From Akkermansiaceae bacterium (GTDB taxonomy: Bacteria > Verrucomicrobiota > Verrucomicrobiia > Verrucomicrobiales > Akkermansiaceae): a stretch of 16,098 nucleotides of DNA. Each line of letters begins with the position of its first letter. Position 1 is the first letter of the stretch. Below are positions 1 through 16,098 of the stretch, one piece after another. The position numbers and the translations under genes were made by a program. The notes beneath the pieces were generated by a model. It ran no database searches, was not told where the DNA came from, and worked only from the letters and a program-made list of their open reading frames with translations. The stretch is taken from positions 1 to 16,098 of the forward strand of contig JALOTR010000005.1 in assembly GCA_025457805.1 (NCBI GenBank). The letters run 5' to 3'.

Positions 1-214
1 CATTCAAAGAGCGCACCCACGGCGAGTGGTCATAGGTGCTTTTCCATGCCGACTCGCTGTCCGGGCATGGCCATGCCGAGTTGCGTGGTGGCAGCTTGTT
101 CACCTCGAAGACCTGCGGATCCTGCCATTCGTGCTTGGAGCTGCTGATTGGCGCGGCGGCGGCATGCGTCGCGAACATGGCGAGTGCCGCCAGCAGGATG
201 GGAAATCGGTTCAC
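1..214 (-). CDS. Secreted GH2 (LacZ-type) beta-galactosidase, 5' part only
   Basis: Only the first 71 codons are present; the gene leaves the window at base 1. It would hydrolyse terminal beta-galactosides from oligo- or polysaccharides outside the cytoplasm. The N-terminus is a signal peptide (hydrophobic ILLAALAMFA, then THAAAA, cleavage probably before PISSSK). The mature start has the run EWQDPQVFEVNKLPPR and, about 25 residues later, SPWVRSLN. This matches the opening of LacZ-type GH2 enzymes (W-x-(D/N)-P-x-V-x-x-(I/V)-N-(K/R)-x-P-x-R, then a SPW-x-x-SLNG block). The start is taken as GTG at 214 because an in-frame TAG lies upstream with no ATG between; the next in-frame ATG is inside the signal peptide. 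The gene diverges from the Verru_Chthon gene. The family call rests on about 45 mature residues, so GH2 is likely, but substrate and full architecture cannot be seen. Confidence 0.8.
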   Translation of the reverse strand, partial: MNRFPILLAALAMFATHAAAAPISSSKHEWQDPQVFEVNKLPPRNSAWPCPDSESAWKSTYDHSPWVRSLN

Positions 215-510
215 GGAAGATATGAGTGGTGGGCTGGCTTGGCTTCCAAGTTTTTCCGGCGGCTCTTCATGGCTATGGACAAACTACAATGGGTTTTGAA
301 AGGGGACAATGCATCCGATCAATGAATCGCGCCAGTTGGCAAAACTACCCATGGGCAGAATTGCCCATAGACGGAACCCTCTGCCCTAACCGAGCCTTCA
401 CTGTTAATCTCCGCCCTCCAGCATGATGTGAAATGCTGAACCTGTCGAAATGCCTGCGAAGGTCCCAGGACGGCATGAAAGAACCCACAAAAACCCATTC
501 ACTTTGACCC
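215..510. other. Divergent intergenic region between the beta-galactosidase and Verru_Chthon A genes
   Basis: This gap should hold promoters for both divergent genes. The one clear signal is the first copy of the palindromic element at 351-400. No convincing sigma-70 -35/-10 pair was seen in either direction. A 10-codon reading frame (475-507, MKEPTKTHSL) ends three bases before the next gene, has no other support and is not called. Confidence 0.6.
351..400 (+). repeat. Palindromic upstream element, copy 1
   Basis: A perfect 7-bp inverted repeat, ATGGGCA-GAAT-TGCCCAT (351-368), is followed by a conserved block to 400 that begins AGACGGAA and contains CTCTGCC. It matches copy 2 (4731-4780) at 45 of 50 positions by eye, with the first 26 bases identical. 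It lies 160 bases before the Verru_Chthon start and 137 bases before the divergent beta-galactosidase start. Because this gap is divergent, the element cannot be a terminator of an upstream gene, which favours a promoter, operator or 5'-leader role. GGGCAGA (353-359) can also pair with TCTGCCC (380-386), as an alternative to the palindrome. Confidence 0.75.
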
Positions 511-3500
511 ATGAAGATGCCGCATTCGCGATGTTTCTCCATAAAATCCCGTGGCTTCGCACTGGTGGTGACCCTTTCGCTGATGATTCTCCTCACCGTG
601 ATCGCGGTGGGACTCCTTAGTCTTTCGGCAATATCGCTGCGCTCCACTTCGGCTGAAGCAATGATGCAGGAGGCGCGACAGAATGCCCGGTTCGCCCTCA
701 TTCTCGCGCTCGGCGAGCTGCAATCGACGACCGGTCCGGACCAACGCGTGACCGCCCCTGCTCAAGTCAGGGGAGCCGATATCTCCCAACCGCATCTGAC
801 AGGGGTCTGGCAGGGATGGAAATGGGATGGAACGGGCAGTCCGGATTTCAAGGGACGGAAGCAGTCGGATTTTTTACGCTGGTTGGTTTCCACTCGTGAG
901 GTTGTTGGCGCGGGCAACGTGGATTTCGTCAAATCGGCCCCCGGCGGGGAGATTGTCGCACTGGTGAGGGGAACGAGGAATGCAGCTGAAAACGACTTGG
1001 TGAATGCCGAGATTGTGCCTGTGTCTTCAGGAACACGGAAAACCAGCGCGGGTTTTGCTTGGGCGGTGTTTGATGAGGCAACCAAGCTCCCCGCCGCTCT
1101 GCCCGAACCAAGCGGCGAATCCGTGACCGCGAGCATGAACCGCATGGCCGCCGCTCCGTTGCCCGGTTACTCTGCGACCACCGTGCGCAACTGGGATGCG
1201 CTGGATCTTCTCGGGGCTTCCCGCACGAAACTCATATCCGCAGGCCAGGCCGGGCTCATCGAGGTCGCGGCAGCGGATCGCGGTTTCCACGACCTCGCCT
1301 CCCGCAGTGCGGGAATCGCCGTGGACGTCGCAAAAGGCGGGTTGGCGATCGATCTCTCGCGATTGTTCAGCAATCCCACCACACTGCCGGCGGATTATGC
1401 GAACCGCCACATCTACTCCGGTGCGGACACCCCGCTTGTGCCGGCACCCGATCGTTTTCCGGGAGCCAATCCGTTCCCGAGTCCGGATCCTTCGTGGCGC
1501 TTGCTGCATTCCCACTACCGGCTCTATGACAAGGTGACCGGAGGCTTGGCCAAACCCACGCTTGCCACCTCCAACGCCGCCCGCCCACCTGCGGGAACCG
1601 AGCCGGCGATTGCGGGAAAACATCCGTTTTTCCACAGCCAGCAAATCGCGCCGGTCATCGCCAAAGCGCAGTTTGTGTTCAGCCTCAGTTTCGGATGGCA
1701 TAGCTCTCTAACAGCCAATGCAAAGGACGGCAACGATGCGCTTCCCGACTCCAATCCCAACAAGGATCACTTTGTCACCTGGTTGGTTGTCGATCCGGTG
1801 ATCACACTTTGGAATCCATACAATGTTAGCCTCCGCTTCACTGGCGGCCGCATCGATCTCTACCGCGTTCCACTTACATTCCAGATCCATAAGAACGGGC
1901 AGAAAATCAGTTCCGAATACACCCATCTTGCCAATTGTTTCCTGTCCGGAACTTCATTCACCGACCGCAAGGACACCTTCTATCGTCTCAATCTGCTGCC
2001 TGAAGTGGGATCCAATGAAATCATCCTGGCTCCCGGCGAACACAAGGTCCTGACCGCCTCCAATCATGTGAAGAATTTCAACAACGAGTTTTCCAAGGTC
2101 GGCTTGAACCTTCGTCCTGGATTTCAACCACCCGCCGGAAACTCAAGCAACCCGGCCGTCGGTGGCGTATCAACGGTCAGCGTCTGCGTCTCATCCACCG
2201 GTGCGAACAGCGGTCAGCAGTATGGCAAATCCGTCCGCACGGTGGCGGTGAAGCCGGGTGATGTCCTCCAAGTGGAGGTGAAGCCCGGCCGTGCGGCGGT
2301 GGACAAGCCCACCGAGACAGGCGGACGTGAGGTTTCCGGATTCCTCAAATACTACATCGGTCCTCCGAACGCCCAACAACTCGTCGGCGGCATCGAGCTC
2401 GATTACGGCAATCAGGAAGCGGAGTATCTCCCTTTGTTTCCGAAGGAGGACCTTCCGTCGGTGGTGGTCAGCAATGCCATTCCCAAGAAAGTCAAAGCCG
2501 ACGACTATCAGGGGAGCAGCCCTCCGGTGGCCGTGCGTTTCAAGGAACCATTCCTGATTTCCACGTTCCAATTGAAAACCGAGCGCGACTCGAAATTTGC
2601 ATCGAGAGGCTGGATCGATAACTCGCCGGTCAATCTCTTCGCTTCCGAAGGCATCGATCAGAAGGAACCATGGTCCGCCCACCAGTTCGAACTGCAGTGG
2701 GAAGCCATGACCGATTGGAGTTCCAGCCCGACTGTGGAAATCGCCAACAACACGGATCGCGGCTATGGAGGATCCGGGATCTTCGCGCAAAGCGGGGTCG
2801 AGTTTGCCACCCACAGTGGCGTGCCCTTGGCCCCCGCATACTCGCTGGCGCAGTTGCGGCATGCCCCGCTCAATACCGGTGGCCAATTGCCGCTCACTTC
2901 CCAAGTCGTCGCGAACTCGTTCGCGCCCCAGGTGATGGATCCGGCCGTGATCCGCAGCACCGCCGACAAACGGACATTTCTCGATCACTCATATCATGCA
3001 AACTCCGCGTTGTTCGATGCCTGCTTTTTCTCCAGCCTCGCCGATCCGGGTGGCCTGCTCGAACCGGCAGGGACCGTGCGTGAGTCGATCGCCAAACTGT
3101 TTGACGAAGGCAACCCCCTTCCCAACCCGCGCCTCCTGCCCCATCATGGATCGCAGAGCACGCAGCAAATCGCCGATTCACTCACCGCTCCGGATGGCTA
3201 TCTCAAAAGCGCCGCCCACCTACTCATCGACTCGCCGCTCAATATCAACTGCACCCGGGTCGATGTCTGGGAAGCATTTCTCAGCAGCACCTTCGGCGCG
3301 GATGTGCCGCGCATCGAGGCTGGCAAGGTGGTCTCCATCGCAGGTGAGGATACCGGTGTGGCCCGCCACCTGCCGAGCAATGGCTCCGCCTTCGAGTCCA
3401 ATGCCGATGCGCCCGGCCAGGACCTGGCCAAGTGGAACGGTCACCGCCGCCTCACCCCGCAGCAGATCCGCCGCCTGGCCGAGGAAATCGTGAAGGAAAT

Positions 3501-3945
3501 CCAAGCCCGCGGCCCATTCCAATCGCTCGGAGAATTCGTCAACCGCCGACCCGGCAACGATGACCTTGCCCAAAATGGAACCCTGCAGGCAGCCATCGAG
3601 CGTGCGGAAATCAACAAGCCCACGCTCGATCCGGCTTTCTCCATTGGCAAGGGCAACACGGCCGACGGCGCACCCGGCGTCCTCACCCAGGCCGACTTGC
3701 TGACGCCCATTGCGCCGGTGCTCACCGCCCGTGGCGACACCTTCCGAATCCGCGCCTACGGCGAGGCAGGCCCGCAAAACGGCCCCAAAGTCAAAGCCTG
3801 GTGCGAGGCGATCGTGCAGCGGGTCCCGGAATATCTCGATCCTGTGGATGAGGCCTGGAAGCCACCTGCCAGCCTTGCCAACCAACGATTCGGCCGACGT
3901 TACGAAGTGCGCGCATTCCGCTGGTTGTCCCCATCGGAAATCTAA
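511..3945 (+). CDS. Verru_Chthon cassette protein A (pseudopilin-like envelope protein)
   Basis: This is an 1144-residue protein. The N-terminus is prepilin-like: basic leader, then SRG-FALVVTLSLMILLTVIAVG at residues 13-34, with possible prepilin-peptidase cleavage after G15. The usual glutamate at +5 is absent. One membrane helix (about 16-38) is followed by a long exported region. Family hallmarks are ARQNARFALILALGELQ followed by GPDQRVTAPAQ near residue 60, SPLNINCTRVDVWEAFLSS near 907, and LTPQQIRRLAEEIVKEIQ with ARGPFQSLGEFVNRR near 985-1015. These fit the Verru_Chthon cassette protein A family, described from four-gene cassettes (A-D) of pilin-like proteins in Verrucomicrobium and Chthoniobacter. 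Function is unknown; a minor pseudopilin or surface role is inference. Members B, C and D are not visible, so this A is solitary or its partners lie elsewhere. No Shine-Dalgarno precedes the ATG. The repeat copy at 351-400 lies upstream. Confidence 0.85.
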   Translation: MKMPHSRCFSIKSRGFALVVTLSLMILLTVIAVGLLSLSAISLRSTSAEAMMQEARQNARFALILALGELQSTTGPDQRVTAPAQVRGADISQPHLTGVWQGWKWDGTGSPDFKGRKQSDFLRWLVSTREVVGAGNVDFVKSAPGGEIVALVRGTRNAAENDLVNAEIVPVSSGTRKTSAGFAWAVFDEATKLPAALPEPSGESVTASMNRMAAAPLPGYSATTVRNWDALDLLGASRTKLISAGQAGLIEVAAADRGFHDLASRSAGIAVDVAKGGLAIDLSRLFSNPTTLPADYANRHIYSGADTPLVPAPDRFPGANPFPSPDPSWRLLHSHYRLYDKVTGGLAKPTLATSNAARPPAGTEPAIAGKHPFFHSQQIAPVIAKAQFVFSLSFGWHSSLTANAKDGNDALPDSNPNKDHFVTWLVVDPVITLWNPYNVSLRFTGGRIDLYRVPLTFQIHKNGQKISSEYTHLANCFLSGTSFTDRKDTFYRLNLLPEVGSNEIILAPGEHKVLTASNHVKNFNNEFSKVGLNLRPGFQPPAGNSSNPAVGGVSTVSVCVSSTGANSGQQYGKSVRTVAVKPGDVLQVEVKPGRAAVDKPTETGGREVSGFLKYYIGPPNAQQLVGGIELDYGNQEAEYLPLFPKEDLPSVVVSNAIPKKVKADDYQGSSPPVAVRFKEPFLISTFQLKTERDSKFASRGWIDNSPVNLFASEGIDQKEPWSAHQFELQWEAMTDWSSSPTVEIANNTDRGYGGSGIFAQSGVEFATHSGVPLAPAYSLAQLRHAPLNTGGQLPLTSQVVANSFAPQVMDPAVIRSTADKRTFLDHSYHANSALFDACFFSSLADPGGLLEPAGTVRESIAKLFDEGNPLPNPRLLPHHGSQSTQQIADSLTAPDGYLKSAAHLLIDSPLNINCTRVDVWEAFLSSTFGADVPRIEAGKVVSIAGEDTGVARHLPSNGSAFESNADAPGQDLAKWNGHRRLTPQQIRRLAEEIVKEIQARGPFQSLGEFVNRRPGNDDLAQNGTLQAAIERAEINKPTLDPAFSIGKGNTADGAPGVLTQADLLTPIAPVLTARGDTFRIRAYGEAGPQNGPKVKAWCEAIVQRVPEYLDPVDEAWKPPASLANQRFGRRYEVRAFRWLSPSEI

Positions 3946-3966
3946 CAATTGATATAACAATTGATA
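3943..3966. repeat. 12-bp tandem duplication across the stop codon
   Basis: TAACAATTGATA occurs twice back to back (3943-3954 and 3955-3966). The first copy begins with the TAA stop of the Verru_Chthon gene. The array fills nearly the whole gap to the next ATG at 3970. It could be a replication-slippage duplication with no function. Confidence 0.9.
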
Positions 3967-3969
3967 TCC

Positions 3970-4686
3970 ATGAATCTCAAAACCCTCGCCCTTTTCCTAT
4001 TCATTCCTGTTGCGCTAAGCGCCGCAGAGCCCACGCCGAAAATCCCCGCTTCGTTTTATGCATTCAACTATGTCCCAGGCCATGAATCGGTAAGCATTCG
4101 CACCGGCCCCGAGGGCTTCGAGGAACTCCGCCTGTCCAAGGCCAACATCGTGGGTCCGGTCAACGCGGTCACCGTGGAGGGCACCTTGATGATTCATTCC
4201 AAACCAGTGAGCGTGGAAGGCAAAACCACTCATCCGGTGATTGGCAGTGTCAAAATCCCGGCGGACCTCAGGCGCGCCCTCGTAGTTTTGTTCCCGGAGG
4301 CTAACAACCCGGCCACGCCTTACCGTTGCATCCTCCTCAACCATGATCTCAATGATTTCCCGCTCGGTGCCTACCGCATGATCAATGTGTCCCCCCACCC
4401 GGTTCGCGGATCCGTTGCCCGCCAATACGTCGAGGCGAAACCCGGCGGCATGGCGGATCTGGAACCCATGGGCGAGCCGGGGGCCATCGTTCCCGTGCGC
4501 TTCGAGTTTTTCGACAACGGGCGCTGGAACCTGCTTACCGAAACCCGCGCCGCCATCCGCAAGGACCGCCGCTGGCTGACCTGTGTCTATCAGGATCCGG
4601 TCACCGGCAGGATGAACATCCGCAGCATCCCGGATCGCACAAACGGAGTCTCCGCTGCCACAAACCAGGACGCCTCGTCCGATTGA
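3970..4686 (+). CDS. Small secreted protein of unknown function downstream of Verru_Chthon A
   Basis: This is a 238-residue protein that I do not recognise. A clear signal peptide (MNLKTLALFLFIPVALSA, cleavage near SA-AEP) sends it across the inner membrane. The mature part has no membrane segment or cysteine cluster and reads as mostly beta: SVSIRTG, NAVTVEGTLMIHSK, RALVVLFPE, then LGAYRMINVSPHPVRGSV, and ends in a polar, probably disordered tail (TNGVSAATNQDASSD). The start is ATG 3970; a TTG nine bases earlier would only add three residues in front of the signal peptide. It begins 24 bases after the Verru_Chthon stop with no terminator between, so the two are probably co-transcribed. A partner in the same envelope structure is a reasonable inference but is not shown. 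Confidence is for the gene being real. Confidence 0.8.
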   Translation: MNLKTLALFLFIPVALSAAEPTPKIPASFYAFNYVPGHESVSIRTGPEGFEELRLSKANIVGPVNAVTVEGTLMIHSKPVSVEGKTTHPVIGSVKIPADLRRALVVLFPEANNPATPYRCILLNHDLNDFPLGAYRMINVSPHPVRGSVARQYVEAKPGGMADLEPMGEPGAIVPVRFEFFDNGRWNLLTETRAAIRKDRRWLTCVYQDPVTGRMNIRSIPDRTNGVSAATNQDASSD

Positions 4687-4730
4687 AAAAACATAACTCC
4701 ATGAAAGCCCTGATCGTGCCCGCTCCCGGC

Positions 4731-4780
4731 ATGGGCAGAATTGCCCATAGACGGAAATCTCTGCCATGACCGAGCATTCA
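4731..4780 (+). repeat. Palindromic upstream element, copy 2
   Basis: The palindrome ATGGGCA-GAAT-TGCCCAT (4731-4748) plus the conserved downstream block is nearly identical to copy 1. It starts 44 bases after the preceding stop and 116 bases before the PATR/PEP-CTERM gene. GGCAGA (4734-4739) can pair instead with TCTGCC (4760-4765). No T-run follows the palindrome, so it does not look like an intrinsic terminator. Confidence 0.75.
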
Positions 4781-4846
4781 GCCTGAATCATCCTTTCAGG
4801 ATAGGGACACCCTGAAGTCCTGGATTTTCGAAAAAACCCCAGCCTC

Positions 4847-6469
4847 ATGAAAGCCGCCTTCGTTTTCCGCAAATTCCTCGCCGCCAGCTCGCTGCTCGCC
4901 GCCGCCAGCTCCGCTCATGGCCAATCCACTTGGAATCCAAGCACCGGTGGATCGTGGAACACCGCCGGCAACTGGACCGGCGGCATTCCCGACAGCAGCA
5001 CCGCGTCCGCGACCTTTTCTCAAAACTTCACGGCATCCCCGATTGTTACCCTTAACAACGCGGCAGGCTTTACGATCAACCAGATCACCTATGATGATAC
5101 AGGCGCTTCCGGAGATTCGACGTTGGCAATCAATGCCGGCACGGGAGGCAAACTCATCCTTGCCGGGACGACTCCGACCATTACCACATCCTCTCCGCTG
5201 TCCATCAGTGTTGCACTGGAGGGGGCAACGACTCTCCGAAAAGCCGGCTCCGGGACACTTTCACTCTCCGGAACAAATACTTACACGGGTGTAACCACCA
5301 TTGCTCTCGGCACAGTGAATGTTTCCGGCGATCACTCCGCAGCCGATGGCGGTTGGTCGTTCCAGGATACTGGCGGAACTGTCAACTTCCAGTCTGGCTC
5401 AACGATAGCTGTTAGGGCAGGTGCGAATATCACCATGCTGAATGGCGGCAGTGCAAAGACATTGAATGTCGCTGGCACCGTCACCACCGCGAGCACCAGT
5501 CAATTGAACGTCAGGGGGGCGAGCACACTCACCCTCAACTCCGGTGCCTCGTGGACGCAAAATGGATCCATGACGATTCAATCCCAGGCCTCAATCACCA
5601 ATGCAGTGATGTCAGTGAACACAGGTGCGAATTTCACGTATGCAAACACGGCGAACATCGTTCTGGCCAAGGCCACCGGATCTGGAAATGGCAGCGCTAC
5701 CTTGAACCTCAGCGGCGGCACATTCACCACCACACGCGGGTTCACCAATACCGCTGCGGGGACCGGCACTGGCTCCACAAATCTCAACTTTTCCAATGGC
5801 GGCACCCTGAAGATATCCAACAATATCACTTCTTTGATCATTCAAGGATCCACCGCATTCAATGTGACAACCACCAATGCGGCTGGCGGCATCATCGACA
5901 CCAACAGTTTCAACACAGCGATCGGCGTCGACATCTCGGGTGCGGGTGGCATGACGAAAGCGGGCGCCGGCACCCTGACACTTTCCGGCTCCAACACCTA
6001 TACCGGTGCCACACTCGTCTCCGGCGGCACGCTGCTGGTCAACGGTTCGCTTGGCAACACCGCTGTCACCGTCGATCCCTTGGCCAGCATCGGAGGCACC
6101 GGAGCGATCAGTGGAAATCTCAGCCTCGCAGGAAATTCATTGTTTCAAGTTGTGGATATCAACGACCCGCTTGCCGTCGGCGGCACCATCAACTTCGGCA
6201 GCGGCTTCGGCATCGCCAACCTGCTCGGCATCGATTGGGATACCCTGGATCTCAACACTCCCTACACCCTGATTTCCACCACCCAGACCTTCGGCACCGG
6301 CGATATTGCCAACTTCGGCCTGGCGAATGCCGTGAATGTCGGCAGCTCCGGACGCCAAGCCTACTTTGTCAACGGCAGCCTGAACGTCTTCGTCATCCCC
6401 GAACCGCGCGCCGCGCTGCTTGGAGGCCTCGGGCTGCTCGCTCTGATGCGCCGCAGAAGGGTCGCTTGA
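4847..6469 (+). CDS. PATR-repeat secreted protein with PEP-CTERM sorting signal
   Basis: This is a 540-residue exported surface or matrix protein. The signal peptide spans residues 1-26 (hydrophobic FLAASSLLAAASSAHG, cleavage before QSTW). The mature start has the GGSWNTAGNW motif common in this class. Two autotransporter-associated beta-strand (PATR) units are clear, near 127-150 (KAGSGTLSLSGTNTYTG) and 368-401 (KAGAGTLTLSGSNTYTG then SGGTLLVNG). The region between is low-complexity, rich in G, T, N and S, and fits a beta-helix. The C-terminus is a textbook PEP-CTERM tripartite signal in the last 25 residues: VIPEP, a hydrophobic helix (AALLGGLGLLAL), then basic MRRRRVA. PEP-CTERM proteins are processed by an exosortase and exported, often with exopolysaccharide; no exosortase is in this window. 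No outer-membrane beta-barrel domain is present despite the repeat's name. It is paralogous to the next gene. Repeat copy 2 lies upstream. Confidence 0.9.
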   Translation: MKAAFVFRKFLAASSLLAAASSAHGQSTWNPSTGGSWNTAGNWTGGIPDSSTASATFSQNFTASPIVTLNNAAGFTINQITYDDTGASGDSTLAINAGTGGKLILAGTTPTITTSSPLSISVALEGATTLRKAGSGTLSLSGTNTYTGVTTIALGTVNVSGDHSAADGGWSFQDTGGTVNFQSGSTIAVRAGANITMLNGGSAKTLNVAGTVTTASTSQLNVRGASTLTLNSGASWTQNGSMTIQSQASITNAVMSVNTGANFTYANTANIVLAKATGSGNGSATLNLSGGTFTTTRGFTNTAAGTGTGSTNLNFSNGGTLKISNNITSLIIQGSTAFNVTTTNAAGGIIDTNSFNTAIGVDISGAGGMTKAGAGTLTLSGSNTYTGATLVSGGTLLVNGSLGNTAVTVDPLASIGGTGAISGNLSLAGNSLFQVVDINDPLAVGGTINFGSGFGIANLLGIDWDTLDLNTPYTLISTTQTFGTGDIANFGLANAVNVGSSGRQAYFVNGSLNVFVIPEPRAALLGGLGLLALMRRRRVA

Positions 6470-6476
6470 TTTTGTG

Positions 6477-6494
6477 CCGGCGCTCAATGGCCGG
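6477..6494. terminator. Weak hairpin after the PEP-CTERM gene
   Basis: CCGGC (6477-6481) and GCCGG (6490-6494) form a 5-bp GC-only stem with an 8-base loop, seven bases after the stop. No T-run follows, so intrinsic termination is doubtful. Confidence 0.2.
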
Positions 6495-6541
6495 GCCTTG
6501 GATGAGATGCATAACTACCGATGTTCATCCCGCATCCGGGC

Positions 6542-6562
6542 ATTGGCAGAATTGCTCATAGA
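6542..6562 (+). repeat. Palindromic upstream element, copy 3 (core only, degenerate)
   Basis: ATTGGCA-GAAT-TGCTCAT followed by AGA matches the core of copies 1 and 2 at 19 of 21 positions. Each palindrome arm carries one substitution, so the inverted repeat is imperfect, and the CTCTGCC block downstream is not conserved. It lies 111 bases before ATG 6653, close to the 116-base spacing of copy 2 from its gene, which supports that start. Confidence 0.6.
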
Positions 6563-6652
6563 TAACATCAACCACCAGATGTGAGGATCCAACGATAGCC
6601 GTTCTTCATGAAAAAAACCAAAACCCAGAAATTCAATCAAACAACCATTCCC

Positions 6653-8893
6653 ATGAAGGCAAAATCATATCGTAAACCCACCGGCGTCAGTCGTCTCCTT
6701 CTGGCCAGCTTCATGCTCGCCACCGCCAACCCGGCACTTGCCCAGACCACCTATTATTGGGATGCGGATGCGGATACCACGATCGATACCGGTGGTGCAG
6801 GCATTTGGGACATCACTTCATCCTTGTGGCGCAGCGGCAGTGACATCGGTGCCCTCTCGCTATGGCCCAATACAGATCCTGCAGTGGACACCGCGCAGTT
6901 TGCCGGAACGGCTGGCACCATTGCACTCAACAGCGACTCCGCGAACCTCAACTTCTCCCGCATCGTCTTCGCCACGACGGGCTATGAAATTGCGGCGCCT
7001 GCCAGCGGCACGGCCACGCTCAACGTGTCCGGTGCCTCACCGGCTCGCATCACCACCAACGCAAGCGTCAGCGCAACCATCTCCGCCGGCATCAGTGGAG
7101 CCTCGACCATCACCCTCAACAAAGCCGGTGCCGGAACCCTGACACTCTCCGGAGCCAATACTCTAACAGGTCCCATCACCGTTGCTGCCAGCGATACGAG
7201 CGGCGGCATTTTGAATATCTCCGGAGATCAATCCGCTGCCACTGGCGGTTACACCATCAGTGGGACTTCGACCGTCAATTTCCAGGCTGGATCGACGATC
7301 GCGGTGGCAGCCGGAAAGAGTATCGCCCTGAGCAATTCCGCCGGTACCCATGCATTGAATGTGGCGGGCACAGTCACCTCCGCAGGGTCCCTGAATGTCA
7401 GGGGCAGGAGCACCCTCAACATCAATTCGGGAGCGAATTGGACACAGAGCGGCACCATGGCTGTCCAGCCACTGAACACATCCTTCGCTGCGGCAATGAA
7501 TGTGCCCAGCGGGGGCAACTTTACCTACAACGGAACGGCGAATATCATTTTGGCGAAAAGCAATAACGCCACGAATAACGGAGCGGCTACCATCACAATC
7601 AGCGGCGGCACTTTCACCACCGGAAAAGGCTTCGATAACAGCTCCGTAACCGCCATCACCACGAGCAGCACCACACTCAATTTCTCCAACGGCGGCACAT
7701 TGAAACTCTCTGCCAACATCAATCCGCTGATCATCCAGGGAAGCACCACCTTCCTCGTGAGAACCAACAATGCTGCCGGCGGCGTCATCGATACCAACGG
7801 AAACGATGCCACGATCCCCGTGGCGATTTCGGGCGTCGGCGGCATCACCAAGGCCGGTGCAGGCACACTCACGCTCTCCGCCGCCAACACTTACGCAGGA
7901 AACACCACCGTAACCGGCGGCACGCTCGTCCTCGGGGCGGACAATATCAGCAACGATGCGTCCAGAGTCACCCTTGGCAGCGCGGGAATCCTCAAGTTGG
8001 ACTACGCCGGCACCGACACCGTCCAAAGACTCTATGTCAACGGCAACCGCATGCCCAACGGCGTCTATGGCTACGATTCCGTCGATTCCATCGCGCAAAG
8101 TATCAACTCCTACTTCGAGGCCACCGGCACTGGCACCCTCACTGTCTCCGACACCGTCGCGCCGACACTCGCCCCCGCCAACATCGTGGACGACAAGGCG
8201 GGCGGACCGGTCGTGGCGAATACCCTCGTCAACTATACTGTTACCTTCAGCGAGGAAATGAACGCCTCAACTATCAGTGCCGCTGATTTCGGCAACACGG
8301 GCACCGCTACCTTCACCATCGGCACGGTGACGCAAGTATCGCCATCCGCGTTCCTCGTTCCCGTCACGCCCACCAGTGCCGGCACGCTGCAACTCAGCGT
8401 TCTCGCTGCCGCCGACATTCAGGACTTTGTCAACAACCCGCTCGACACCACGTCCGCCATTGCCGACGACACGACCCTCACGGTGAATGCGCCAGCGTCT
8501 GGTTACGCCACCTGGTCAGGCGGTGCGCCCGCTGATGGGGATGCCAATAATGACGGCGTGGAAAATGCCGTCGCCTGGGCACTCGGCGCGGCCGATCCTG
8601 CCGAGAACGCCATCGGCCTCCTGCCGACCTTGGATAACACGAGCGATCCGAACTACCTCATTTTCACCTTCCAGCGCAGTGATCTGGCGAAGACCGACCC
8701 GAATACCTCGATCACGGTGGAATACGACGACAACCTCAGCGGCTGGACCACCGCCGTGGATGATAACAACAACGTTGAAATCGAAGAAACCGATGGCAGC
8801 CCGAAGGACACCGTGATTGTCAAACTCAAGCGCTCCACCCTCGGTGCCAGCGGCAATCTCTTCGTCAGGGCCAACGTGGTGGTGACACCATAG
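6653..8893 (+). CDS. PATR-repeat secreted protein with Ig-like and calcium-loop-like C-terminal parts
   Basis: This is a 746-residue exported protein from ATG 6653. The signal peptide is basic and then hydrophobic (LLLASFMLATANPALA, cleavage before QTTYYW). PATR units lie near residues 150-175 (KAGAGTLTLSGANTLTG) and 396-430 (KAGAGTLTLSAANTYAG, then TGGTLVLG). From about 502 (VAPTLAPANIVDD) a segment resembles bacterial Ig-like domains with an F-S-E-E-M motif. Near 628 the run DGDANNDGVENAVAWALGA resembles a dockerin or EF-hand calcium loop, common in verrucomicrobial exported proteins. The end (SGNLFVRANVVVTP) has no PEP-CTERM. The middle aligns closely with the preceding gene, so the two are paralogues. 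An in-frame ATG at 6608 would add 15 residues. I prefer 6653 because the added stretch is A-rich like the leaders here, the signal peptide is better placed, and the distance to the upstream repeat matches copy 2. A scaffold or adhesion role is inference. Confidence 0.85.
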   Translation: MKAKSYRKPTGVSRLLLASFMLATANPALAQTTYYWDADADTTIDTGGAGIWDITSSLWRSGSDIGALSLWPNTDPAVDTAQFAGTAGTIALNSDSANLNFSRIVFATTGYEIAAPASGTATLNVSGASPARITTNASVSATISAGISGASTITLNKAGAGTLTLSGANTLTGPITVAASDTSGGILNISGDQSAATGGYTISGTSTVNFQAGSTIAVAAGKSIALSNSAGTHALNVAGTVTSAGSLNVRGRSTLNINSGANWTQSGTMAVQPLNTSFAAAMNVPSGGNFTYNGTANIILAKSNNATNNGAATITISGGTFTTGKGFDNSSVTAITTSSTTLNFSNGGTLKLSANINPLIIQGSTTFLVRTNNAAGGVIDTNGNDATIPVAISGVGGITKAGAGTLTLSAANTYAGNTTVTGGTLVLGADNISNDASRVTLGSAGILKLDYAGTDTVQRLYVNGNRMPNGVYGYDSVDSIAQSINSYFEATGTGTLTVSDTVAPTLAPANIVDDKAGGPVVANTLVNYTVTFSEEMNASTISAADFGNTGTATFTIGTVTQVSPSAFLVPVTPTSAGTLQLSVLAAADIQDFVNNPLDTTSAIADDTTLTVNAPASGYATWSGGAPADGDANNDGVENAVAWALGAADPAENAIGLLPTLDNTSDPNYLIFTFQRSDLAKTDPNTSITVEYDDNLSGWTTAVDDNNNVEIEETDGSPKDTVIVKLKRSTLGASGNLFVRANVVVTP

Positions 8894-15434: not shown

Positions 15435-15448
15435 TGCTCTTATGAACA
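15435..15448 (+). promoter_or_regulatory. Candidate LexA (SOS) box over the dinD start
   Basis: TGCTC-TTAT-GAACA fits the palindrome TGTTC-N4-GAACA at 9 of 10 specified positions. As I recall it, that is the reported LexA-binding consensus for Verrucomicrobia. It spans the dinD start codon (15442). LexA repression of dinD is known in Escherichia coli, so the placement makes biological sense. A single site with one mismatch could still be chance. Confidence 0.5.
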
Positions 15449-16098
15449 TCGAACAGATTCATCGCATGCAGAGCGACTTTGATTCGCTGGCTCAAACCCT
15501 GCCGAATGACGACAGGATCGAATTTTGGTTCGCCCGCGATCTTCAGGAACCTCTCGGCTATGCCCGTTGGGAAAACTTCATGACTGCCATTCAGCGGGCC
15601 ATTGAGTCTTGTGAGACAACGGGTTACAAATCTGAACATCATTTTCGTGGCGTCACGAAATTGATCACCCACGGCAAGGGCGGGCAACGCGAAATCGAGG
15701 ACTTCATGCTGACCCGCTATGCCTGCTACCTGATCGCCCAGAACGGAGACCCCAGGAAGGAGGCGATCGCCTTCGCCCAAAGCTACTTTGCCCTCCAAAC
15801 GCGAAAACAAGAACTCATTGAGGAACGCATCCGCCTCCTTGGCAGGTTGGAGGCCCGGGACAAACTCCGGGCCTCCGAAAAAGCCCTCTCGGACAACATC
15901 TTCGAGCGTGGGGTGGACGAAGATGGATTCGCTCGAATCCGATCCAAAGGAGATGCCGCCTTGTTCGGCGGCCACACAACCCAGATGATGAAGGCGAAAT
16001 TCGGCATCGTTCAATCGCGCCCTTTGGCCGACTTCCTCCCAACCCTGACTATTGCGGCCAAAAACCTCGCCACCGAAATGACCAACCACAACGTGCGG
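15442..16098 (+). CDS. dinD: DNA damage-inducible protein D (DinD), 3' end missing
   Basis: The open frame runs 219 codons without a stop to the right edge. DinD is an SOS-regulated protein; the Escherichia coli protein has been reported to act on RecA filaments. Matching features are an N-terminal BRO-N-like segment (EFWFARDLQEPLGYARWENF, residues 27-46), then REIEDFMLTRYACYLIAQNG (near 82-101), AFAQSYFALQTRKQELIEER (near 109-128), and IFERGVDEDGFARIRSKGD with ALFGGHTTQMMK (near 153-184), then RPLADFLPTLTIAAKN. All follow the family's order. Full-length members have roughly 270-290 residues, so about 60 are missing. ATG 15442 is preferred; ATG 15466 is possible and would place the LexA-like box fully upstream. 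Base composition is lower in GC than the glycosidase pair to the left. Confidence 0.9.
   Translation, partial: MNIEQIHRMQSDFDSLAQTLPNDDRIEFWFARDLQEPLGYARWENFMTAIQRAIESCETTGYKSEHHFRGVTKLITHGKGGQREIEDFMLTRYACYLIAQNGDPRKEAIAFAQSYFALQTRKQELIEERIRLLGRLEARDKLRASEKALSDNIFERGVDEDGFARIRSKGDAALFGGHTTQMMKAKFGIVQSRPLADFLPTLTIAAKNLATEMTNHNVR

Follow-up and report, generated by a model that had tools for sequence, protein, structure and literature searches.

A palindromic element ahead of surface-protein genes in an Akkermansiaceae bacterium, a probable cluster-specific operator of a NarL-type two-component system

Which regulator, if any, acts on a short palindrome that stands repeatedly ahead of genes for large exported proteins, and which genes would it serve? 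The question is raised by a 16,098-nucleotide stretch of DNA from an Akkermansiaceae bacterium (assembly GCA_025457805.1, contig JALOTR010000005.1; the whole stretch is called the window here), which carries three copies of such an element. An earlier reading of the letters alone (the sequence-only reading) had proposed an operator or promoter of a surface-protein regulon, perhaps linked to PEP-CTERM export. Our analysis suggests, with a probability that we put at about 0.78, that the palindrome is the cluster-specific, autoregulated operator of a NarL-type two-component system for glycan-use and surface-protein genes. What we observed directly are the repeats, where they stand, which way they face and how well they are conserved, together with their occurrence alongside one subfamily of response regulators; the proposal is built on these observations.

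Three copies of the palindrome in the window

The copies are as follows.

351..368, plus strand: copy 1, a perfect 18-bp palindrome (ATGGGCA-GAAT-TGCCCAT), an exact match to ATGGGCAGAATTGCCCAT, with its 7-2-7 core at 352-367
4731..4748, plus strand: copy 2, a perfect 18-bp palindrome, an exact match to ATGGGCAGAATTGCCCAT, upstream of PATR gene 1
6542..6559, plus strand: copy 3, a degenerate palindrome with 2 mismatches to ATGGGCAGAATTGCCCAT, upstream of PATR gene 2

The three-copy palindrome is real, since none of 200 dinucleotide shuffles of the window reached three matches to ATGGGCAGAATTGCCCAT, and copies 1 and 2 are indeed identical at 45 of 50 bases (351-400 against 4731-4780). All copies face the same way and lie upstream of genes, and none precedes the glycosidase pair or dinD, just as the sequence-only reading had it. 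The genes downstream of the copies are these.

511..3945, plus strand: a large protein with a pseudopilin-like N-terminus (Verru_Chthon_A/GspK-like, far under the cut-off), putative target
3970..4686, plus strand: companion gene without a family match, probably co-transcribed with 511..3945
4847..6469, plus strand: PATR protein 1, with a weak PEP-CTERM-like C-terminus, putative target
6608..8893, plus strand: PATR protein 2 (start possibly 6653), putative target

The distance from palindrome to gene, which had been given as 111-160 bases, is 160 bp for copy 1 and 116 bp for copy 2, counted from start to start; for copy 3 it is 66 bp to the ATG at 6608, and becomes 111 bp if PATR gene 2 starts at 6653. 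The name Verru_Chthon for the first gene stands only in weakened form, as residues 15-76 alone of the 511..3945 product match TIGR02600, scoring 24.1 bits where the cut-off is 332.3, and the GspK match is equally weak; pseudopilin-like is the safer label. Similar weak-matching pseudopilin-like proteins are preceded by the palindrome at four loci of related genomes as well (L190, L191, L194 and L091).

A fourth copy beside a sensor kinase and a response regulator

The genome to which the window belongs (G000) is 59% complete and lies in 736 contigs. Scanned as a whole at up to 2 mismatches to the 18-mer, it yielded the three window copies and one further site only, at position 7469 of contig C154, which is a perfect palindrome, ATGGGCAATATTGCCCAT. 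Copies scattered at random or belonging to a mobile repeat had been named in advance as the pattern that would speak against a regulatory role; the sites found are placed non-randomly relative to gene starts, and in this genome they do not form a dispersed repeat.

About 50 bp downstream of the fourth copy (95 by a simple gene caller) begins a minus-strand open reading frame (ORF; 4461-7418) for a Reg_prop/Y_Y_Y/HisKA_3 kinase, and after it, on the same strand (3744-4412), the gene of a NarL/LuxR-type response regulator. Both the Response_reg and the GerE domain of this regulator score above the cut-off, as they do in the response regulators of the related genomes G067 and G049 and in the Thr-type one from G438 that is discussed below. 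A Y1_Tnp (IS200-like) transposase gene occupies positions 3090-3581 of C154 (L095), between a GH2 gene and the response regulator gene.

The start of C154 falls inside that GH2 gene, whose Pfam match begins at profile position 10, and the window itself opens with a truncated gene.

2..214, minus strand: divergent gene cut by the contig end, 71 residues ending ...SPWVRSLN

By eye, and from their likeness to GH2 sequences, we take these residues to be a GH2 N-terminus. C154 thus probably adjoins the window via one divergent GH2 gene split between the two contigs, an arrangement that we infer rather than observe because a Pfam search returned no match for the 71 residues and the contig ends share no overlapping sequence. 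Copy 1 sits in the divergent gap between this minus-strand gene, which starts at 214, and the pseudopilin-like gene.

Sites and regulators in related genomes

In a scan of 73 genomes of the genus, matches turned up in 10 genomes and numbered 21 rows, against 2 for a reversed control. Four copies fell within 23 kb in G067 and three within 15 kb in G049, and the single matches in seven other genomes (7 of the 21 rows) lay inside called genes in five cases and outside in two. The response regulators of the G067 and G049 clusters are 71-73% identical to that of C154. Both regions hold window-type genes with palindromes in between. The palindromes precede genes for large PATR proteins (Pfam; L087 and L091), GH20, GH16, pseudopilin-like, kinase and response regulator genes and a gene whose product has no Pfam family and looks TonB-like by eye. 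In G067 this TonB-like gene is in two overlapping frames (L088:5653-6875); in G049 it is a single ORF.

The idea of an operator serving a regulon has good support, in that intergenic copies recur in related clusters, mostly in one direction relative to the following gene and with one regulator subfamily, but the regulon had been drawn both too broadly and too narrowly. Among 30 loci taken from the 108 PATR matches of the window's genome, only the two in the window have the core; the others have at least 7 mismatches in 21 positions, and with no further copy outside C154 we rejected a general PATR/PEP-CTERM element. In the other direction, the site stands ahead of histidine-kinase, response regulator, GH16, GH20 and GH29 genes in similar clusters, and not of surface-protein genes alone.

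A sister palindrome, GTCGGCA-N4-TGCCGAC, occurs at paralogs and relatives of the response regulator, namely at second loci of G049 and G067 and in G002, G012 and G006. The joint consensus RTSGGCA-N4-TGCCSAY amounts to inverted TSGGCAR heptamers separated by a 2-bp gap (7-2-7: TSGGCAR-NN-YTGCCSA). In this loose form it matches in 91 of 145 genomes, and most of these matches are probably chance because many have GC-rich centres. With the strict oriented pattern TSGGCAGWWYTGCCSA there were 42 rows, representing 38 distinct sites and spread over 20 of the 145 genomes, against 3 control rows, and the contexts of all 38 sites were inspected with a simple home-made gene caller.

These strict sites go together with a particular recognition helix of the regulator. 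Searched as a DNA pattern, the helix YSTV[QH]xHIE is present in six of the 145 genomes (G000, G002, G006, G012, G049 and G067), all of which have sites. If sites in the last kinase codons are counted as lying outside gene bodies, seven genomes hold at least two such strict sites. All but one of these seven, G054, have the helix, which is found in none of the 138 others (Fisher 6e-10, from hand-entered counts and genomes that are not independent). Within the six helix-positive genomes 19 of 22 strict sites lie outside called genes. Two of the exceptions overlap the last kinase codons, 64 bp ahead of the response regulator ORF, and the third (L093) was called coding, with the Pfam-matched fucosidase frame beginning about 40 bp downstream of the site, which we think reflects an over-extended fucosidase start. 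The next gene along the centre-G direction runs the same way as the site in 16 of the 19 noncoding cases; two more are symmetric and face a pseudopilin-like gene, and one points off its contig. Elsewhere 6 of 16 strict sites are outside genes (three in G054 and one each in G046, G029 and G021), and a match in G108, inside a coding gene, was judged to be chance. The G046 palindrome (L201:3265-4000) stands before a response regulator gene with a broken reading frame, with a GH101 gene upstream.

At 80 loci of more distant response regulators (44-55% identical, 837 kb) TSGGCA-N4-TGCCSA was found at no noncoding position and at one coding position. The helix YSTV[QH]xHIE was found at none of them (it could be read by script in 41 of the 80), and other shared 7-2-7 palindromes amounted to stray pairs.

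Co-variation of the site with a helix residue

The two forms of the palindrome, ATGGGCAGAATTGCCCAT as the Arg-type site and GTCGGCAGAATTGCCGAC as its Thr-type counterpart, appear to vary with one residue of the regulator. The rows compared were picked by hand from sites that lie near these genes and have at most 2 mismatches. Where Arg follows STVQ in the response regulator, site position 3 was G in 15 of 17 rows, one site appearing twice, once for each direction; among the remaining 26 rows it was C in 25. The Arg/Thr residue aligns with Val189 of NarL, a residue that contacts bases, and G049 and G067 each hold both types.

A sample of the phylum (387 genomes) contributed one further genome, G438, which belongs to the same family but a different genus and has two such helices, one Thr-type and the other Arg-type. 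Its site types were predicted beforehand, C-type at the Thr locus and pure G-type at the Arg locus. The Thr half of the prediction held, as that locus (40 kb) contains two perfect C-type sites, between a PATR gene and a divergent kinase gene and between the kinase and the response regulator, and no G-type site; the Arg half held only in part (see below). Somewhat short of even odds, and so tentatively, we would propose that paralogous sensor-regulator pairs within one genus each own an orthogonal operator, with the helix residue and base 3 having co-diverged and the second half-site having followed less strictly. If that were true, several glycan-use clusters with giant surface proteins would operate in parallel within a single cell, with no cross-talk between them. 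It also frames a testable question of specificity, that of one helix residue choosing between TGGGCA and TCGGCA half-sites.

Promoter context and a working model

Further features around copies 1 and 2 bear on where a promoter might lie.

335..352, plus strand: a weaker overlapping site, GTTGGCAAAACTACCCAT, tentative, with 2 mismatches to RTSGGCA-N4-TGCCSAY, 16 bp upstream of copy 1
369..400, plus strand: 3' extension of copy 1, common to copy 2, candidate promoter region
4749..4780, plus strand: 3' extension of copy 2, common to copy 1, candidate promoter region

Counterparts of the weaker site, with 2-3 mismatches to the same consensus, are found near copies in G067 and G049. The 32-bp extension shared by copies 1 and 2 is a possible promoter region. 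Five of eight sites in G006 and G054 have, by eye, TACAA[AC] beginning 22 bases past the 18-mer and ACGACA, ATGACA or ACCACA immediately after the palindrome; two others are weaker and one has none. If these are -10 and -35 elements, the palindrome centre would lie near -43. The mutually similar G006 promoters may be recent copies.

In the model that we favor, a periplasmic signal derived from glycan would activate the histidine kinase through its Reg_prop/Y_Y_Y sensor, and the phosphorylated response regulator would dimerise on TSGGCAR-NN-YTGCCSA, the pair of inverted heptamers, most likely at a position immediately 5' of the -35 region. From there it would activate, more plausibly than repress, the pseudopilin-like operon, the PATR surface proteins and the exported glycosidases, and would activate its own kinase and regulator genes as well.

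Several observations weigh against this model or against the co-variation. A search beside window copies 1 and 2 turned up no sigma-70 promoter. In G054, where no response regulator has the YSTV[QH]xHIE helix, three strict sites are noncoding. G002 and G012 appear to be a close pair, as do G049 and G067, which leaves less independent evidence than the counts suggest. Several of the 26 rows without Arg do not adjoin a response regulator and were classed by exclusion; three of the 26 belong to G054 and G046, where the exact helix is missing. At the mirror position, 16, the 17 Arg-type rows have C ten times, A four times and G three times, pointing to a looser second half-site, and the 26 others have G 23 times and C three times; the Arg/G switch may have been one event. 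At the Arg locus of G438 the one intergenic site is a hybrid of G-type and C-type halves in the gap between a GH16 gene and a giant gene, and the Arg-type regulator there (L321:18918-19130) is a short GerE-type protein with no receiver in the open frame.

Alternative explanations

If a different transcription factor bound the palindrome, the response regulator would merely share its clusters. A candidate of the LacI/AraC type exists in the G067 cluster, a protein that pairs a periplasmic-binding-protein-like domain with an AraC-type helix-turn-helix (HTH), and the G054 sites occur without a helix-positive response regulator. We nevertheless consider this unlikely, as the response regulator helix tracks the sites genome by genome, the sites lie directly ahead of response regulator and kinase genes, the 7-2-7 spacing fits NarL-type dimers, and base 3 varies with the residue in the helix. 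Very unlikely, in our estimation, is a structured RNA in the 5' leaders, in which ATGGGCA and TGCCCAT would pair in a hairpin that works via attenuation or an RNA-binding protein. The change from G3/C16 to C3/G16 would be compensatory in a stem too, and 56-base pieces gave folding z-scores of -1.79 (copy 1) and -2.15 (copy 2), but copy 3, and a longer piece with copy 1, fold no better than shuffles, and Rfam returned no match at gathering score and one weak match (E 3.2) inside a gene. Moreover, G-U and C-A mismatches are equally frequent over 43 oriented rows (9 of each), where RNA would favor G-U, and this equality speaks for DNA over an RNA stem. Some sites lie between divergent genes, and with the promoter-like element of G006 and G054 located 3' of the palindrome, the palindrome would there be untranscribed.

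The Y1_Tnp gene on C154 and the likeness of copies 1 and 2 (45 of 50 bp) could be taken to indicate a mobile palindromic repeat (REP/MITE-like) moved by that transposase, all the more as G094 has a similar palindrome in 19 copies. This is highly improbable: the window's genome has only four copies, on two probably adjacent contigs, short of the many copies by which REP/REPIN elements are defined; the copies keep to the same gene types across species; flanks are mostly unrelated between genes, except for the G006/G054 set; and the G094 repeat mostly has another centre, in a genome without a helix-positive response regulator. There is scarcely any likelihood that the copies are conserved as parts of short leader peptides, small frames reading MGRIAHRR or IGRIAHR. 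In-frame short ORFs do run from 309, 4701 and 6521, and by eye a TAA/TGA stop is kept between copies 1 and 2, but the palindrome occurs in both strand orientations with base changes on either side of its centre, features that a peptide would leave unexplained, and conservation extends beyond the stop codon.

The G094 palindrome looks like a separate repeat family. This order-level relative has 19 exact RTSGGCA-N4-TGCCSAY matches, against 0 in the control, 13 of them exactly GTCGGCAGGAATGCCGAC; some stand in threes 308 or 376 bp apart, and the two inspected (L209, and L212 at 1501) are intergenic.

Comparison with known systems

The hybrid two-component systems (HTCS) of Bacteroidetes polysaccharide utilisation loci combine Reg_prop/Y_Y_Y sensors and cluster-local control of glycosidases with an AraC output. 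Here, in contrast, one protein is the sensor kinase and another the DNA-binding regulator, with GerE as the output domain. With the Verru_Chthon cassette (TIGR02600) the window shares a pseudopilin-like N-terminus in a large protein and a small adjoining companion gene, but the window protein fails the curated cut-off of Verru_Chthon_A.

The regulator shares receiver and GerE domains with the NarL/FixJ family; the best Protein Data Bank (PDB) match of its profile is full-length NarL (1a04), and that of the C154 HTH alone is VraR. The putative targets are glycan and surface-protein genes, whereas NarL serves nitrate. Inverted heptamers with a 2-bp gap are also the form of the 7-2-7 operators of NarL in E. 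coli, which PMC4549865 places at napF (-40 to -49) and yeaR (-38 to -47), and the predicted centre near -43 in G006 resembles these. The half-site differs, TSGGCAR here against TACCCCT in the engineered NarL site of that paper.

Titles and abstract openings in the literature, within limited coverage, describe no operator or regulation for PATR/pseudopilin-like clusters of this kind. For large-PATR/pseudopilin-like clusters in Verrucomicrobiota the palindrome would supply an operator of defined sequence, a candidate for its regulator and a list of targets, and the motif offers a means of finding such clusters in draft genomes.

Other candidates and neighboring features

By eye, GGCAGAATTGC has 7 bases between GG and GC and so does not fit a sigma-54 promoter, the consensus spacing for which is GG-N10-GC. 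Repeated matches in relatives to about 4754-4769 had suggested conservation of the 3' extension, which we dismissed as coincidence; both cases that were read (L041 and L057) are a gene start, MAEISLGLSFDDV, of what is presumably the IMP dehydrogenase gene (GuaB). At the far end of the window, 15442-16098, a DinD-like protein (BRO-N) is cut by the contig end, with no palindrome ahead of it.

A third operator type, CATGCGT-NN-ACGCATG, was considered and rejected. At up to 2 mismatches, counted per strand, it matched 17 times in G038 and 23 times in G028, against 3 for the control in each; the three best G038 copies lie inside kinase genes adjoining response regulator genes, where they encode MR[EL]RM, and a fourth G038 copy that was inspected is also inside a gene. 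Beside another relative of the response regulator, near-identical 16-bp palindromes, TACCTC-N4-GAGGTA, stand at L281:3563 and 4664, and are possibly another operator.

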